DNA of 36,968 nucleotides, from the NCBI GenBank assembly GCA_013214695.1, contig JABSRX010000083.1, positions 1 through 36,968 on the forward strand, read 5' to 3'. Below, piece after piece: positions 4,888 through 26,311 of the stretch (its first letter is position 1; the number at the start of each line of letters is the position of its first letter). Position numbers and translations under genes: made by a program. Under the pieces are notes generated by a model. The model saw nothing but the letters and a program-made list of their open reading frames with translations, ran no database searches and was not told the DNA's origin. The DNA comes from Rhizobiaceae bacterium. GTDB lineage: Bacteria; Pseudomonadota; Alphaproteobacteria; Rhizobiales; Rhizobiaceae.

Positions 4888-5793
4888 TTAGTCGTTCAAC
4901 AGGGCAATCAAAGTTTCACCAAGCTTGGCAGGTGACGGCGAAACGCGAATGCCGGCCGCTTCCATCGCTGCGATCTTGTCGTCAGCACCGCCCTTACCAC
5001 CGGAGACCACAGCACCGGCGTGACCCATGGTGCGGCCTGGAGGTGCTGTGCGACCGGCGATAAAGCCGACGGTCGGCTTGGAGCGGCCCTTCTTGGCCTC
5101 GTCGATCAGGAACTGAGATGCATCTTCCTCTGCAGAACCACCAATCTCACCGATCATGATGATCGATTCGGTTTCGTCGTCAGCAAGGAACATCTCCAAT
5201 ACGTCGATGAACTCGGTGCCCTTGACCGGGTCGCCGCCGATACCAACGGCCGTTGTCTGGCCGAGACCGGCATTCGTGGTCTGGAAAACAGCTTCATATG
5301 TCAGTGTGCCGGACCGTGACAGAATTCCGACATTGCCCTTCTTGAAGATGCTGCCCGGCATGATGCCGATCTTGCATTCATCCGGGGTCAGAATACCCGG
5401 GCAATTGGGGCCGACCAGGCGTGAATTCGACTTGATCAGCTTTTCCTTGACCCGCACCATATCCAGTACAGGCACGCCCTCGGTGATGGCGATGATCAAA
5501 GGAATTTCAGCATCAATGGCTTCTTCGATGGCCGCAGCGCATCCAGCCGGTGGCACGTAAATCACCGAAGCATTGGCGCCGGTGACTTCCTTGGCCTCGG
5601 CAACAGTCGCGAAAATCGGCAGATCGCCGGTTCCGTTGGACGCAGTCCAGGTCTCGCCACCCTTCTTGGGATGGGTTCCAGCAACCATCTGGGTGCCGTG
5701 ATAAGCCAAAGCCTGTTCGGTATGGAAGGTGCCCGTTTTGCCGGTCAAGCCTTGCACGATGACTTTGGTGTCTTTGTCGATAAGGATGGACAT
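4888..5793 (-). CDS. sucD: Succinyl-CoA ligase (ADP-forming) alpha subunit
   Basis: [49 protein letters not shown] and [18 protein letters not shown] motifs. Confidence 0.97.
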
Positions 5794-5818
5794 CTTTGAG
5801 ATGACTCCGTTTGTTCAG

Positions 5819-6387
5819 TTATCTTTGAATAATGGTGACGTTCAGCAAACCGCCCTTGTTGGTCGGCGGTGCCTTGGCGAACAGGAAGACTTTCAGATCG
5901 TCATTGCCGCCGGCCCAGGTTGTTGTCCGCAACAAACCTTCAGGAACGTCAGTTGAAATCGGCTGCTTGCCAGCCAGACGCTGCATATTGGCCATGAATT
6001 CGGTTGCATCCTGCTGGTCATCAAGAACCATGGAGCAGGACGTCGCTGTGCCGTTTGCCAGATCCGGGAAAGATTCTTTCATCTTGTCCGTAAGACCCGC
6101 CTGGGTGATCCCAACGCGGAACAGGCGTTCGCCGACCTGAACGTCCCAGCCGCGCAAAACCGACGGGTTTTCGTAGCTTCTGAATTCGGTCAGCTCTTCA
6201 TCGGTGATCGACTTCCAGGCCAGCTCCAAAGCCATTTCCTGAATGGCATCCAGATTGGGGACCTGTGCATAGCAAATGCGGTTGAAGACATAGACCGGAT
6301 CCGGGTTTTCATCATTGGCAAATGACGGGCTTGCCGAAACACTGGCGAGCAGGACGCCCGCCGCCAAAACTGATTTCATCATCGACA

Positions 6388-6388
<1 letters not shown>
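5819..6388 (-). CDS. Secreted/periplasmic protein of unknown function between sucC and sucD
   Basis: 189 aa with a Sec-type signal peptide ([26 protein letters not shown]); start ATG overlaps the sucC TGA (TGATG). Confidence 0.85.
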
Positions 6389-7581
<1,193 letters not shown>

Positions 7582-20087: not shown

Positions 20088-20951
20088 TTGTTCAACCCGA
20101 CCTCGATCGTTGCTTCCGCTTTTGGCGATCAGCTGGCCAAGACGTATCTGGAATATTTCTCCGGTCGCAACCCGGAATATGCCGCCTATTTGAGCGGTGC
20201 CGCGCGTTTGGTTTTGGAGCGATTGGGCAATTCAGACGCGCTTTATCACAATGCAGAACACACCATGATGGTCACCCTCGTGGGTCAGCAGATCATGCGT
20301 GGGCGATTGATCACGGAAACGCTTAGGCCGGAAGACTGGGTTCACTACACCGTGGCTCTGCTGGTGCACGACATCGGCTATGCACGCGGTATCTGCAAAG
20401 GCGACACGCCGACTTCGGTGGTGATCAATGCCAACGGCGACACGGTGACACCACCCCGCGGATCGTCCGACGCCTTCCTATCTCCCTATCATATTGACCG
20501 TGGCATGATTTATGCCCGTCAGCGGTTCTCCGAGTCTCAATTGATTGACGAGGAGCGCATCGCAGAAGCGATCGACTTCACCCGCTTCCCGATACCCGAC
20601 GATCCCTATTATGCCGAAACGCAGTCGGAAAAGGCCCTGGTTCGTGCAGCTGATTTGATCGGACAGTTGGCGGACCCGTTCTACCACCGCAAGATCAACG
20701 GCCTGTTTCACGAGTTCCAGGAAACCGGCACGGCGAAGCGGCTCGGCTATACTTCCCCGATGGACTTGGTAGAGCAGTTTCCCAATTTCTTCTGGTCACA
20801 AGTCCAGCCGCTGATCGGACCGGCTTTGAGCTATCTGGAACAGACCATGGAAGGCAAACAGTGGGTGGCCAATCTGTACAATCACGTCTTCCAGATTGAG
20901 CACCGCAATGTCGGTCTTGGGCCGTTTGCCGGCCCTAAAGAAGACGAATAG
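20088..20951 (+). CDS. HD-domain metal-dependent phosphohydrolase with YHNxEH motif
   Basis: LYHNAEHTMMVTLVG...VALLVHDIGYARGI; GGAG upstream of a TTG start. Confidence 0.82.
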   Translation: MFNPTSIVASAFGDQLAKTYLEYFSGRNPEYAAYLSGAARLVLERLGNSDALYHNAEHTMMVTLVGQQIMRGRLITETLRPEDWVHYTVALLVHDIGYARGICKGDTPTSVVINANGDTVTPPRGSSDAFLSPYHIDRGMIYARQRFSESQLIDEERIAEAIDFTRFPIPDDPYYAETQSEKALVRAADLIGQLADPFYHRKINGLFHEFQETGTAKRLGYTSPMDLVEQFPNFFWSQVQPLIGPALSYLEQTMEGKQWVANLYNHVFQIEHRNVGLGPFAGPKEDE

Positions 20952-20971: not shown

Positions 20972-23293
20972 CTACTTCTCCGTCATCACCCAGCGACCAT
21001 CCCAATCGTCGCCGGGAGGATTGGCTTCCATATAAGCACAGCGATCAAGATAGATATCCGACAGCTTGTCGTCTGGATTGAATTCCAGACAGGCCTTGAA
21101 GGCTTGTGTTGCGTTGGACCAGCGCTGGGCGCGGAATTCATTGATGCCTTCGCGGAAAGAAGCAAGCACATTCATCAAATTGGGGAAGCTCTCCTCCGTG
21201 TGGTAATCGAGAAGCTCAAACACTTTGACCGGTTTGGTCTTGCCTTTCACCACCACCAGATCAATGTCGCGCATCCGGTAGGTGGCCTTCAGCTGATTGG
21301 CGGTGAATTCGCTCAATAGAATTTTGGCTGCATATTGCTTGCACGCACTCTCCAATCGGGCCGCGAGGTTCACCCCGTCGCCGATCATCGTGTAATCCAT
21401 GCGCTTGGGACTGCCGATATTGCCGCTCACCACCGTGTCCGTGTTGAGGCCAATCCCCATACCGACAGGCATCTGATCGTTCTTGATGCGCAGCGTGTTC
21501 CATTCATGCAGCCTGGTGGTCATGGCAATCGCCGCTCGCACACCCCGGTCGGCATCATCATCGTGGGCCAGCGGAATGCCAAATCCAGCCATGATGGCGT
21601 CGCCGATGAACTTGTCGAGCATACCGTCTTCGTCCGAAATGCATTCGACCATGATGGTGAAGTACTCGTTCAACAGGCTGACGGTACCCTGCGGTCCAAG
21701 CGCTTCGGTCAGGGGTGTGAATCCACGAATATCGGAAAACAGAACCGTTGCCTCCGCGCTCTTGCCGCCGAGCATGTCCTCGGCCCCACCCATCAATTGG
21801 TCGGCAATACCAGGGTCCATATAGCGGGACATGGTTGATTTCATGCGTTTTTCAGCGCTGATGTCCTCCAGCATAATCATCGAGCCCAGTTTGGCGCCTT
21901 CAACGCTGACGAGTGGTTGCAGGGTCAGATTTGTCGACAGAGTTTCCTCGCCGACTTTCAGCTCGGCATCCATCAGAACATCGACTTCACCCTGCTCCTC
22001 ATTGCGCTTGATGCGGTCGATTACCCAGGCATTTTCATCCTTGAAAACCTCAGAACTTGGCTTCTTCAGAACGTCTTCGGCTTTCAGTTGAAGTATGCGC
22101 TGACCGGCCGCGTTGCAGGTCACGACGAGACCGTCCTCATCGAGGGTCAAAACGCCATTGGACATGCTTTCCAGCATGCTTTCGTTGTAGTTCTTGATGT
22201 TCTGGATGTCGTCAAACAGTTTGGCGTTTTCCAGCGCCACGGCCACCTGGCTGGTGAAGGCCCGCAGACGCTGCTCGTCCTCCGTGGTAAATGCACCGCC
22301 CCGCTTGTTCAGACACTGGGTCACCCCAATGACCTTACCTTCTTTGGAAATCACCGGCACGCAGAGGATGGACCGGGTGAAGTATCCCGTCTGTTTGTCG
22401 AAGCTCGGATTGAAGCGCAGATCCGCATAAGCATGGGGAATGTTGACGGTTTGCGCCGACGTGAACACCGTGCCGGCGATGCCGACATGGTTTGGCAGAC
22501 GGATCTCCGTTGAGAGCCCTTCCCCAACCATGGCAAACAGTTCATTGGTCTTCTCGTCGTTCAGGAACAGAGTGGAACGGTCTGCGGCCAGCATGCGCAT
22601 GGCTTCACCCATGACCCGCCCAAGGATAACCTTCAGGTCGATTTCCGATGTCACATCTGCCACAACATCGAGAAACTCGCGTTCCTGATTGCGCGACTTT
22701 TCCATGCGCTCCGCAAATTGCTGGCTTTCCAGCGCAATGGCCGCCTGGCTGGTCATCGCCTCAAGAAGTTCCAGGTCGCTTTGGGTAAATTCACCCTCCA
22801 CCCGGTTGAGGATCTGCGAAACGCCGATAACCTGATTTGTCGCGGTGCGAATGGGCGCACACAGGATGCTTTTCGTGTGATAGCCGGTTTGCTCGTCAAC
22901 TTCTTTGTTGAATCGGGTGTCCGCATAGGCATCCGTGACAATTTCCCCGACCCCGGAGGTGAAAACATGGCCGGCGATACCGCTGTTGTTGAGGATTCGG
23001 ATTTCCCTTTTGATCTCTCCCTGGGCGACCCTTGAATAGAGTTCGCCCGTGGCTTCGTCATTGAGAAGGATGGACCCCCGTTCCGCCAGCATCTCCCGGG
23101 TCGTGATTTCCACCAGAATGTTGAGAATATCATCCAGTGAGTTCAGTGACGCGATCTTCTGTGACAGGCCCAGAAGCAACTCTGCCCGATAGAGACGCTC
23201 CTCAAGATCCGCGGTGTGACTTTGACCATTGCCTTTCGCGGTCCGCTTGGCGGGCGGTGCTTTTTTCGTCTTGCTGGCCGATGTTTTTTGCAT
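20972..23293 (-). CDS. GAF-GAF-PAS-class III adenylate cyclase with C-terminal TPR-like tail
   Basis: Two GAF domains (RFNKEVDEQTGYHTKSILCAPI; RFNPSFDKQTGYFTRSILCVPV), PAS segment (SMSNGVLTLDEDGLVVTCNAAGQRIL), cyclase FSDIRGFT...LDKFIGDAIMAGFG...MDYTMIGDGVNLAARLE. Confidence 0.93.
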   Translation of the reverse strand: MQKTSASKTKKAPPAKRTAKGNGQSHTADLEERLYRAELLLGLSQKIASLNSLDDILNILVEITTREMLAERGSILLNDEATGELYSRVAQGEIKREIRILNNSGIAGHVFTSGVGEIVTDAYADTRFNKEVDEQTGYHTKSILCAPIRTATNQVIGVSQILNRVEGEFTQSDLELLEAMTSQAAIALESQQFAERMEKSRNQEREFLDVVADVTSEIDLKVILGRVMGEAMRMLAADRSTLFLNDEKTNELFAMVGEGLSTEIRLPNHVGIAGTVFTSAQTVNIPHAYADLRFNPSFDKQTGYFTRSILCVPVISKEGKVIGVTQCLNKRGGAFTTEDEQRLRAFTSQVAVALENAKLFDDIQNIKNYNESMLESMSNGVLTLDEDGLVVTCNAAGQRILQLKAEDVLKKPSSEVFKDENAWVIDRIKRNEEQGEVDVLMDAELKVGEETLSTNLTLQPLVSVEGAKLGSMIMLEDISAEKRMKSTMSRYMDPGIADQLMGGAEDMLGGKSAEATVLFSDIRGFTPLTEALGPQGTVSLLNEYFTIMVECISDEDGMLDKFIGDAIMAGFGIPLAHDDDADRGVRAAIAMTTRLHEWNTLRIKNDQMPVGMGIGLNTDTVVSGNIGSPKRMDYTMIGDGVNLAARLESACKQYAAKILLSEFTANQLKATYRMRDIDLVVVKGKTKPVKVFELLDYHTEESFPNLMNVLASFREGINEFRAQRWSNATQAFKACLEFNPDDKLSDIYLDRCAYMEANPPGDDWDGRWVMTEK

Positions 23294-23296
23294 GAA

Positions 23297-23932
23297 TTAA
23301 TCCGATCTCGCCGATGTCTCAGCTTCTTCCAGCTTGTCGCGCAAGGCTTGAATTGTTTGGTGCAGTTGGATCACCTCATCGCGATGACTGGTGGCCTGTT
23401 GGTGCAGTACATCCTCGGACGTGAACTTCAATGTATCCAATTGCTCGCGCGACTTGGCAATTGTCTCATGCAATTGGCGAATTTCGGTTTCATATGTCGC
23501 GCGGGTTTGCTGAACGGCTTCTTCCATCTTCTGCCGCAGACTTTCCAACTCGTCGCGCAAGACCCGGGAAGTTTCCTGCAACTGACGCTCCTCATTGGCG
23601 CCGTCGGCAACCGCCTTTTGCACAGCGATATCTTTTTCCATGCGCAGCGCATCCAGCTCTTCACGCAAGGCGAGCGCTGTTCGTTTCAGCTGATTGATTT
23701 CGTCAAAACTCTCTGCCCGGACCTGTTGAATCTCGGCACTCTTGGTCTGTCTTTCGGCTTCCAACTCAAAACGCAGCGCCTCGATGGTCTGCTGCAGATG
23801 ACGCCGCTCGAGCTGTCCGTCCAAATGCGCCTGTTCGGTTTCGAGTGTCGCCATTCCGTGTAAACCCAACTGCCCAGATATCGCGATTGCCCCAACGAGC
23901 AAAGTATCGGGACCAAGAGGATGGTGAGTCAA
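23297..23932 (-). CDS. Coiled-coil protein with 36-residue tandem repeats, upstream of the cyclase in the same operon
   Basis: Repeat starts LQQTIEALRFELEA / LKRTALALREELDALR / LQETSRVLRDELESLR / LHETIAKSREQLDTLK / LHQTIQALRDKLEE, each exactly 36 aa apart; stop 3 nt before the cyclase ATG. Start may instead be MATLETEQ at 23854. Confidence 0.8.
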   Translation of the reverse strand: MTHHPLGPDTLLVGAIAISGQLGLHGMATLETEQAHLDGQLERRHLQQTIEALRFELEAERQTKSAEIQQVRAESFDEINQLKRTALALREELDALRMEKDIAVQKAVADGANEERQLQETSRVLRDELESLRQKMEEAVQQTRATYETEIRQLHETIAKSREQLDTLKFTSEDVLHQQATSHRDEVIQLHQTIQALRDKLEEAETSARSD

Positions 23933-24250: not shown

Positions 24251-26311
24251 ATGCGCAAATTCAAGCTTAAGATGCAGGCAGGTGGCAATTGGTTTGCCAG
24301 GGAATTGCCAAGCTATCTTCAGGTTTGGCGGCTGCCGCCTCTGGAACGCATTGGTCCTGACCAATTCGCGGATCTGTTTCGCATCACGCCGATCGCCACG
24401 CTTGGCCAGATTATTAATGTTACCGTGGTCGCCATCGCGCTTTGCGGGCATGCCGGTTATCTGCCGATGTTCATCTGGTGGCTGACCAACCTGTTGATGT
24501 GTGGCTGGACCTACAGCCGCTGGCTCCGAAACCGACATCGTAAGATTGAAAAACTCTCCAGCCGTGCCATTCCGCGCGCTGTTATCTCCGGAGTTTTATT
24601 CGCGCTGCCCTGGGCATTGCTGGCCGGTTTTTATCTGGGATCCCTGCCCCGCCACGAAGAACTGATCATGTGCATCGCCCTGATCGGCATGGTTGCTTCC
24701 GGCAGCGTGCAGTTGTCGCGCATCTATCCGGCAGCCATTGCCTATCTGGTGACGATCTTTGCACCCGTTATTTTCAAGAGCATCTCCATTGGAGAAGGTC
24801 ACTACTACCTGCTGGCCGCGCTTGCAGTGTCTTACATTGCGTATCTGCTGACCATTGTTGCCAACAGCGCCAATGCCTCGATCGAGCGTTCCACGGCGCT
24901 GAATGACCTTGAGAAGAAAGTCGTGCTGCTCGACGAAGCCAATGATGCGCTCGAAAAGCTGGCTTCTTTTGATGATCTCACCGATCTGCCCAATCGCCGC
25001 GCCTTCTACATCCATCTGGAAGGCACGATCAATGAGGCGATGCTGTTTCGGGATCAGGTCTATGTGCTGGTGGGCGATCTGGATCATTTCAAGAACGTCA
25101 ACGACATGGCGGGACACGCCGCCGGCGACCAGCTCCTGCAGGTCATTGCCCAACGTCTCGCGGACTGCGTTGGCGAAGGGGACCTCGTTGCCCGCATGGG
25201 CGGGGATGAATTTGCGGTCATCGTGCAAAGCGCAGATATTCTAGCCGACAAGAACGCCTTCATGAAACGGCTTCTGGAACGGATCAACGAACCGGTTGAT
25301 CTCGATGGAACGTCGGTCAATCCGGGCATGAGTTTCGGCGTTTCCAGCTTCCCGGATGACGCAAAGGATGCAGAATCCTTGCTGTCTTACGCTGACATCG
25401 CGCTGCAACAGGGCAAGTCGATCTCCCGCGGCGATTGCTGGTTCTTCAACAGCAGGATGAGCGAACAGCTTGCTGCAGACAATGTGCTAGAAAAAGAGCT
25501 GCGCGAGGCTCTGGCGGCCAAGGAATTCGAACTCTTTTACCAACCCAAGGTCGACATCAAGACCGGACGCTTGCACGGCATGGAAAGTCTTGTGCGGTGG
25601 CGGCGCGCCAACGGCGACGTGGTTGCGCCTGGCGGCTTCTTTCGGGTGGCAGAAGAACGCGGCCTGATGTCGGAATTGGCCGACTACGTGCTGGACAAGT
25701 TCGTTGAAGACAATTGCCATTGGACGAATATGGGGCTGAGTCCGGGATTTGTTTCGGTCAATATTCATCCGATCCAGATTAAGGACCGCAATCGGATGGC
25801 GGCCTTTGCCGATCAGGTGGCCGAGACGGTTCTGGACAAGACCAAGCTTGTGATCGAGATCACCGAAGAGTGTGTTGTTGGCCGCGGAACGGACGAGGTG
25901 CCCAACACACTCGCTTTCATGCGCGACCAGAACTTCCGCATTTCCCTGGATGACTTTGGCACGGGCTATGCCTCGCTAACCCATTTGAAGACATTGCCAG
26001 TGGACGAATTAAAAATCGATCGCTCCTTTATTTCGGATCTGAATACGGACATGTCGGACCGCGCCATTGTGTTGGCGATGATCAAGCTGGCGGATACTCT
26101 GGGAATCTCCGTTGTTGCCGAAGGCATTGAGGATCAGGAACAGCACAACACCTTGCTGGCGATGGGCTGTGCCAACGGACAGGGCTATTTTTATGGACGC
26201 CCAATGGATGTTGAGGCCGCCACGACTTATTTGCGCGAGGCGTATTCCCGCGACCGGTCGAGAAAGGCGGTAGCCGGCGAGGCAGCCAGCCGCCACCAAC
26301 TCTCCGCTTAA
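24251..26311 (+). CDS. Membrane-anchored GGDEF-EAL protein (diguanylate cyclase/phosphodiesterase)
   Basis: N-terminal TM helices, DDLTDLPNRRAFY, MGGDEFAVI, EAL domain with MESLVRW, ISLDDFGTGYASL, VVAEGIEDQEQ. Confidence 0.95.
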   Translation: MRKFKLKMQAGGNWFARELPSYLQVWRLPPLERIGPDQFADLFRITPIATLGQIINVTVVAIALCGHAGYLPMFIWWLTNLLMCGWTYSRWLRNRHRKIEKLSSRAIPRAVISGVLFALPWALLAGFYLGSLPRHEELIMCIALIGMVASGSVQLSRIYPAAIAYLVTIFAPVIFKSISIGEGHYYLLAALAVSYIAYLLTIVANSANASIERSTALNDLEKKVVLLDEANDALEKLASFDDLTDLPNRRAFYIHLEGTINEAMLFRDQVYVLVGDLDHFKNVNDMAGHAAGDQLLQVIAQRLADCVGEGDLVARMGGDEFAVIVQSADILADKNAFMKRLLERINEPVDLDGTSVNPGMSFGVSSFPDDAKDAESLLSYADIALQQGKSISRGDCWFFNSRMSEQLAADNVLEKELREALAAKEFELFYQPKVDIKTGRLHGMESLVRWRRANGDVVAPGGFFRVAEERGLMSELADYVLDKFVEDNCHWTNMGLSPGFVSVNIHPIQIKDRNRMAAFADQVAETVLDKTKLVIEITEECVVGRGTDEVPNTLAFMRDQNFRISLDDFGTGYASLTHLKTLPVDELKIDRSFISDLNTDMSDRAIVLAMIKLADTLGISVVAEGIEDQEQHNTLLAMGCANGQGYFYGRPMDVEAATTYLREAYSRDRSRKAVAGEAASRHQLSA

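Follow-up and report, generated by a model that had tools for sequence, protein, structure and literature searches.

Bacterial class III cyclases are usually regarded as self-contained sensor–enzyme proteins. Among the closest described systems, the Anabaena adenylyl cyclases CyaB1 and CyaB2 combine tandem GAF domains with a PAS and a cyclase domain, and to our knowledge no rod partner has been described for either. Separate proteins that organize and activate a cyclase are exemplified by FimL and FimV of Pseudomonas aeruginosa, which act on the membrane-bound adenylate cyclase CyaB and are not helical repeat rods. Tropomyosin, a heptad coiled coil on actin, is a helical rod with a quasi-repeat of about 39–40 residues and equivalent docking surfaces along its length. 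Finally, FilP/Scy and other bacterial coiled coils with hendecad or mixed repeats are long, non-heptad, and close to the 3.63 residues per turn of a straight helix (PMC9858780); FilP/Scy are built mainly from hendecads and carry a DivIVA-like N-terminal domain (PMC9858780).

The window analyzed here, a stretch of 36,968 nucleotides from a Rhizobiaceae bacterium (contig JABSRX010000083.1), encodes a predicted helical rod immediately upstream of a cyclase whose domain order equals that of CyaB1 and CyaB2. Rod-bearing cyclases form a separate clade among the sequences sampled, in a tree from which CyaB1 itself is absent. Like FilP/Scy, the rod is long, non-heptad, and predicted to be nearly straight; unlike them, it has an exact 36-residue repeat, a cyclase partner, and no detected DivIVA-like domain. 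With tropomyosin we draw an analogy alone and claim no homology; the rod repeat is exact and its presumed partner is a cyclase. The proposed pair resembles FimL/FimV and CyaB in having a separate organizer of a cyclase. GcyA/GcyB/GcyC of R. centenum were also weighed as a comparison, by literature search alone, and set aside.

The rod gene and the neighboring cyclase

The two genes and the parts of the rod are as follows.

20972–23293, minus strand: adenylate cyclase gene (GAF-GAF-PAS-class III; 773 aa), which begins 3 nt past the rod stop
23297–23854, minus strand: rod gene, 185 aa, start picked via orthologs
23855–23932, minus strand: N-terminal extension from a TTG start, probably outside the conserved protein, without counterpart in ortholog L002
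23690–23797, minus strand: unit 1, LQQTIEALRFELEAERQTKSAEIQQVRAESFDEINQ
23582–23689, minus strand: unit 2, LKRTALALREELDALRMEKDIAVQKAVADGANEERQ
23474–23581, minus strand: unit 3, LQETSRVLRDELESLRQKMEEAVQQTRATYETEIRQ
23366–23473, minus strand: unit 4, LHETIAKSREQLDTLKFTSEDVLHQQATSHRDEVIQ
23297–23365, minus strand: half unit 5, LHQTIQALRDKLEEAETSARSD, and stop

The 185-aa rod thus opens with an N-terminus of 19 residues, followed by four complete units of 36 residues and half of a fifth. The first-pass annotation had started it at TTG 23932 (211 aa), which is probably too early; ATG 23854 is the likelier start. In the same-genus ortholog (L002, genome G009; 69% identity), the open reading frame starts with the Met that corresponds to 23854, and no standard start codon was found further upstream of that Met, so the conserved rod is probably 185 aa long. 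A longer, TTG-initiated form is still conceivable, given the Shine-Dalgarno-like AGGA that precedes this codon. On one further contig (L006, about 910–1466, and L040), the rod frame has no ATG, GTG, or TTG at the expected N-terminus, which may reflect a non-standard start or a sequence error.

The cyclase matches Pfam models for GAF (52–189 and 219–354), PAS (371–478), and the class III catalytic domain (513–689), and its best PDB match is the tandem GAF structure of CyaB2 (1YKD; E 2.4e-42). Its catalytic residues D521, K561, D565, T635, N642, and R646 are all present, with the adenylate-specifying Lys/Thr among them, and all six positions (the metal Asp pair, adenine Lys, Thr, Asn, and Arg) are invariant in 58/58 rod-clade cyclases. 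The NKFDE motif of the second GAF domain, LNKRGGAFTTEDE, is likewise kept in this clade: N, F, and D in all 58 members, E in 57, and K or R at the remaining position in all 58. The Arg/Thr pair of GAF2 that contacts cAMP, mapped here to CyaB2 Arg291/Thr293, also appears to be kept. Because the catalytic residues are invariant and both GAF2 features are retained, the enzyme is likely an adenylate cyclase with cAMP feedback.

An exact 36-residue repeat

The five repeat starts originally reported (LQQT, LKRT, LQET, LHET, and LHQT) do lie exactly 36 residues apart, at residues 46, 82, 118, 154, and 190 of the 211-aa frame. Among lags of 3–109 residues, self-similarity of the window rod is by far the highest at 36 and also at 72 and 108. 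At lag 36 identity is 32% and the mean BLOSUM62 score is 1.32, against a maximum of at most 0.56 at any lag in 3,000 full shuffles, and of at most 0.74 at lag 36 and 0.93 at any lag in 3,000 shuffles preserving the hydrophobic/charged/polar pattern. With the open reading frames of the fetched loci as background, the strong lag-36 signals listed were rods or frames overlapping rods. Chance periodicity is ruled out by both shuffle controls together with conservation in relatives.

Profile assignment across 62 rods yielded 342 units, 295 of them complete. Loss of the periodicity in orthologs had been named beforehand as a refutation; instead, the 61 relatives fetched repeat the pattern of the window rod, and 278 of 279 successive spacings equal 36. 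The sole off-phase spacing, of 141 residues (4 x 36 minus 3), lies mid-rod in a Marinimicrobia protein (L050, 5953–6927). Repeat number, which the first-pass annotation had suggested surveying, ranges from 2 to 13 units per protein, and since it differs between genera, no fixed rod:cyclase stoichiometry is implied. Most rods are 150–300 aa long, stop about 14–28 residues into a final partial unit, and are acidic (median net charge about −10). The family consensus reads L-[KR]-x-T-[AIV]-x-A-L-R-[DE]-E-L-[ED]...F17...V-Q...D-E-I-x-Q, with L1 conserved at 95%, T4 at 82%, L8 at 89%, R9 at 99%, F17 at 46%, Q24 at 79%, E33 at 93%, and Q36 at 79%; the other consensus positions are K/R2, A/I/V5, A7, D/E10, L/M12, E/D13, V/I23, and I34.

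Tandem Repeats Finder detected no DNA-level tandem repeat in the window rod gene, so its units are old and diverged rather than recently expanded. Recent DNA tandem duplication was rejected for the same reason and because only 43 of the 295 full units are closest to a unit of their own rod; L052, L071, and other long rods account for most of those 43. The L052 rod (5776–7356; Desulfonema magnum) has 526 aa and 13 units, scores higher at lag 72 than at lag 36, and contains some units that are 100% identical, which suggests that two-unit blocks were amplified recently.

A predicted straight helix with a second conserved face

Hydrophobic periodicity of the rod peaks at 3.60 residues per turn, with a power of 2.89 versus 0.15 at 3.5 and 0.21 at 3.67, the value of a hendecad-dominated rod. 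The peak is a matter of arithmetic, since an exact 36-residue repeat leaves a helix 3.6 as the sole helical harmonic. Even so, it means that the hydrophobic stripe stays in phase over the entire length of the rod, and because 3.60 is close to the 3.63 residues per turn of an undistorted helix (PMC9858780), the rod should be nearly straight. The AlphaFold2 model of the 185-aa protein is a single continuous helix spanning residues 2–184 (183 residues; mean pLDDT 91.7). Together, periodicity and model agree with the original proposal of a near-straight helical rod with a regular stripe, 36 residues making ten turns of 3.6.

On a helical wheel drawn at 100 degrees per residue, the core falls near 60–160 degrees, while K/R2, R9, E/D13, F17, and Q24 gather at 180–260 degrees. 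This outward face exceeds the face at 280–20 degrees in conservation (mean KL 1.57 vs. 1.03). Plain coiled coils seldom have an outward face that is conserved and partly aromatic, and we infer that the 180–260-degree face is a candidate docking surface.

Linkage to a single cyclase clade

When 84,980 bacterial and archaeal genomes were scanned with nothing but the rod alignment as query, 39 loci emerged, and in 39/39 the next gene, on the same strand, encodes a GAF-GAF-PAS-class III cyclase, with about 55–86% identity over the aligned part. The loci belong mostly to Rhodospirillales and other alphaproteobacterial metagenome-assembled genomes, plus Algimonas arctica; the remaining labels are Bryobacteraceae, Burkholderiales, Rhodoferax, Planctomycetaceae, Marinimicrobia, Desulfonema magnum, and Nitrospinota. 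Two more families within the order also have the rod ahead of the cyclase, and the alignment is nearly gapless. As first described, the window rod stops 3 nt before the cyclase start (TAA, then TTC, then the cyclase ATG). Elsewhere the two genes commonly overlap by 4–11 nt, with cyclase starts at −11, −8, or −4 nt from the rod stop in many loci, or otherwise lie within about 10 nt, a spacing consistent with translational coupling. In L025 and L052 the rods lie 276 and 407 nt, respectively, from the listed cyclase start.

For the reverse test, 385 alphaproteobacterial genomes were queried twice, once with the cyclase and once with the rod profile. Rods occur in 32, and all but one of these (G696) also carry a rod-clade cyclase. 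In G696, the rod (L099, 877–1841) is followed by a cyclase fragment ending after the first GAF domain, which could be a decayed copy or a rod–GAF-only variant. Every rod-clade cyclase of the class sample (at least 55% identity) with upstream DNA on its contig has a rod. Two others, L067 and L082, lie at contig ends with no rod on the same piece, and their genomes carry one on another contig, also near its end (L100 and L101). A partial cyclase running off its contig (L102) is uninformative for pairing, and a match to the catalytic part only, inside a longer open frame (L103), was excluded from the count. No rod was found upstream of the 17 cyclases that share less than 50% identity, for a few of which the upstream sequence is short. 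The search for plasmid copies gave only weak matches to part of the cyclase, on four plasmids of Rhizobium.

Rod-bearing cyclases are monophyletic in the tree (58/58, with L067 entered as rod-bearing by clade membership), with no rod-less member in the clade and a node support of 0.70; the phylogeny thus gives them a single origin. Absence of co-occurrence had also been named as a refutation of the first-pass claim; co-occurrence is almost complete both ways, in the rod scan and in the reverse test. The linkage of rod and cyclase is nearly absolute across several phyla, in both directions, and within one clade. This is as strong as gene-neighborhood evidence usually gets; operon pairing by itself falls short of proving contact.

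A rod outside the curated families

The original remark that no described family has this layout is borne out by Pfam, NCBIfam, and PDB searches, which give no curated or convincing match. Pfam returned nothing for the 211-aa frame at E <= 0.01, only a below-cut-off match to Mis12 for the 185-aa form, and scattered weak coiled-coil matches for the relatives; all NCBIfam matches to the rod were below cut-off, and those in the PDB, at E >= 0.0049, were to unrelated helices. General profile searches of Pfam and NCBIfam found no DivIVA match in the window rod at the thresholds used. Within the literature library searched, we found no paper on a 36-residue coiled-coil repeat or on a rod–cyclase pair. 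Since no curated family, convincing structure, or paper matches it, the rod is probably an undescribed element beside a known enzyme, and the pair appears to join a CyaB-type cyclase to a dedicated repeat-rod partner.

Possible roles of the rod

As the rod lies directly before this cyclase in relatives across phyla, it is probably a cyclase partner that organizes or controls the enzyme, in keeping with the first-pass idea of a scaffold or signaling rod. We lean, by a modest measure, toward a helical scaffold or regulator that would be dedicated to the cyclase, coupled to it in translation, and bound to it through a repeated surface. Such a rod would be a soluble, continuous alpha-helix of about 5.4 nm per 36-residue unit and about 27 nm in total, presumably associating, in whatever oligomeric state, through its straight hydrophobic stripe, and its second conserved face (K/R2, R9, E/D13, F17, and Q24) would recur at 36-residue intervals, always pointing the same way. 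Made together with the cyclase through translational coupling, it would bind cyclase dimers, probably at the tail before the first cyclase helix, which is variable and often Lys/Arg/Pro-rich, or at the conserved helix directly before GAF1 (LRQADRKLKQAEMLL...). Positions whose conservation is confined to rod-bearing cyclases are dispersed and form no cluster that would mark a single docking site. Binding would set the clustering, spacing, or placement of the cyclases and thereby tune cAMP output, with GAF2 presumably providing feedback as in CyaB1 and CyaB2. A stricter and distinctly less probable version would make the 5.4-nm repeat a ruler with one cyclase docking site per unit, such that 2–13 units would set the number of aligned cyclases in a linear cAMP-producing array of genetically encoded length.

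The linkage data also fit an allosteric input subunit, which would sense a signal or structure elsewhere and switch the cyclase by a helical twist or shift passed through its N-terminal helix and GAF1. Conservation of that helix and retention of the C-terminal half unit in most rods agree with this possible, if less probable, role; however, Pfam and NCBIfam recognize no sensory domain on the rod, and one would not expect a fixed signal lever to vary from 2 to 13 units. Because unit number varies and phase does not, we prefer a scaffold to a lever. The long unbroken predicted helix, non-heptad repeat, and variable length also recall filament-forming or cytoskeletal proteins of the crescentin or FilP/Scy kind, with the cyclase as cargo or merely co-regulated, yet this seems unlikely: in the rod scan every rod is accompanied by the cyclase, most rods measure only 150–300 aa, and the window protein matched no profile of an intermediate-filament or DivIVA-type family.

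Tight coupling with the rod translated first would suit an assembly or stability factor that aids co-translational dimerization or protects the cyclase from degradation and has no later role. We regard this as quite improbable, because chaperoning by itself would hardly account for the repeat number, the exact phase, and the conserved outward face, and sister cyclases of equal domain order do without a rod. The weak, scattered matches to many unrelated coiled-coil families might still suggest an ordinary low-complexity coiled coil, spaced by chance and adjacent to the cyclase by accident; this reading is refuted, as shuffles stay below the observed periodicity throughout and every relative, in several phyla, keeps both the periodicity and the neighbor.

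If the favored scaffold reading is correct, a rod linked to one cyclase clade across phyla would constitute a genetically encoded second-messenger scaffold, and its 36-residue lock would make it a natural ruler or array element. The 36-residue profile provides a practical definition of the family, and cultured rod-bearing hosts are known in Algimonas arctica and Desulfonema magnum.

Other neighboring genes

Beyond rod and cyclase, no neighbor is common to all loci examined, and there is thus no third conserved gene; an upstream protein family is shared by 17/40 loci and a DNA polymerase IV-like gene by 15/40, and the rest differ. In the window, the gene at 20088–20951 (plus strand), convergent with the cyclase, is similar to HD-domain metalloproteins of the Npun_R2479 family (E 7.8e-94; 314 bits, under the curated cut-off of 400), and such a gene is not prominent among the shared neighbors of other rod–cyclase pairs. 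The divergent neighbor of the rod, at 24251–26311 (plus strand), encodes a GGDEF-EAL protein, so that cAMP and c-di-GMP genes adjoin in the window.
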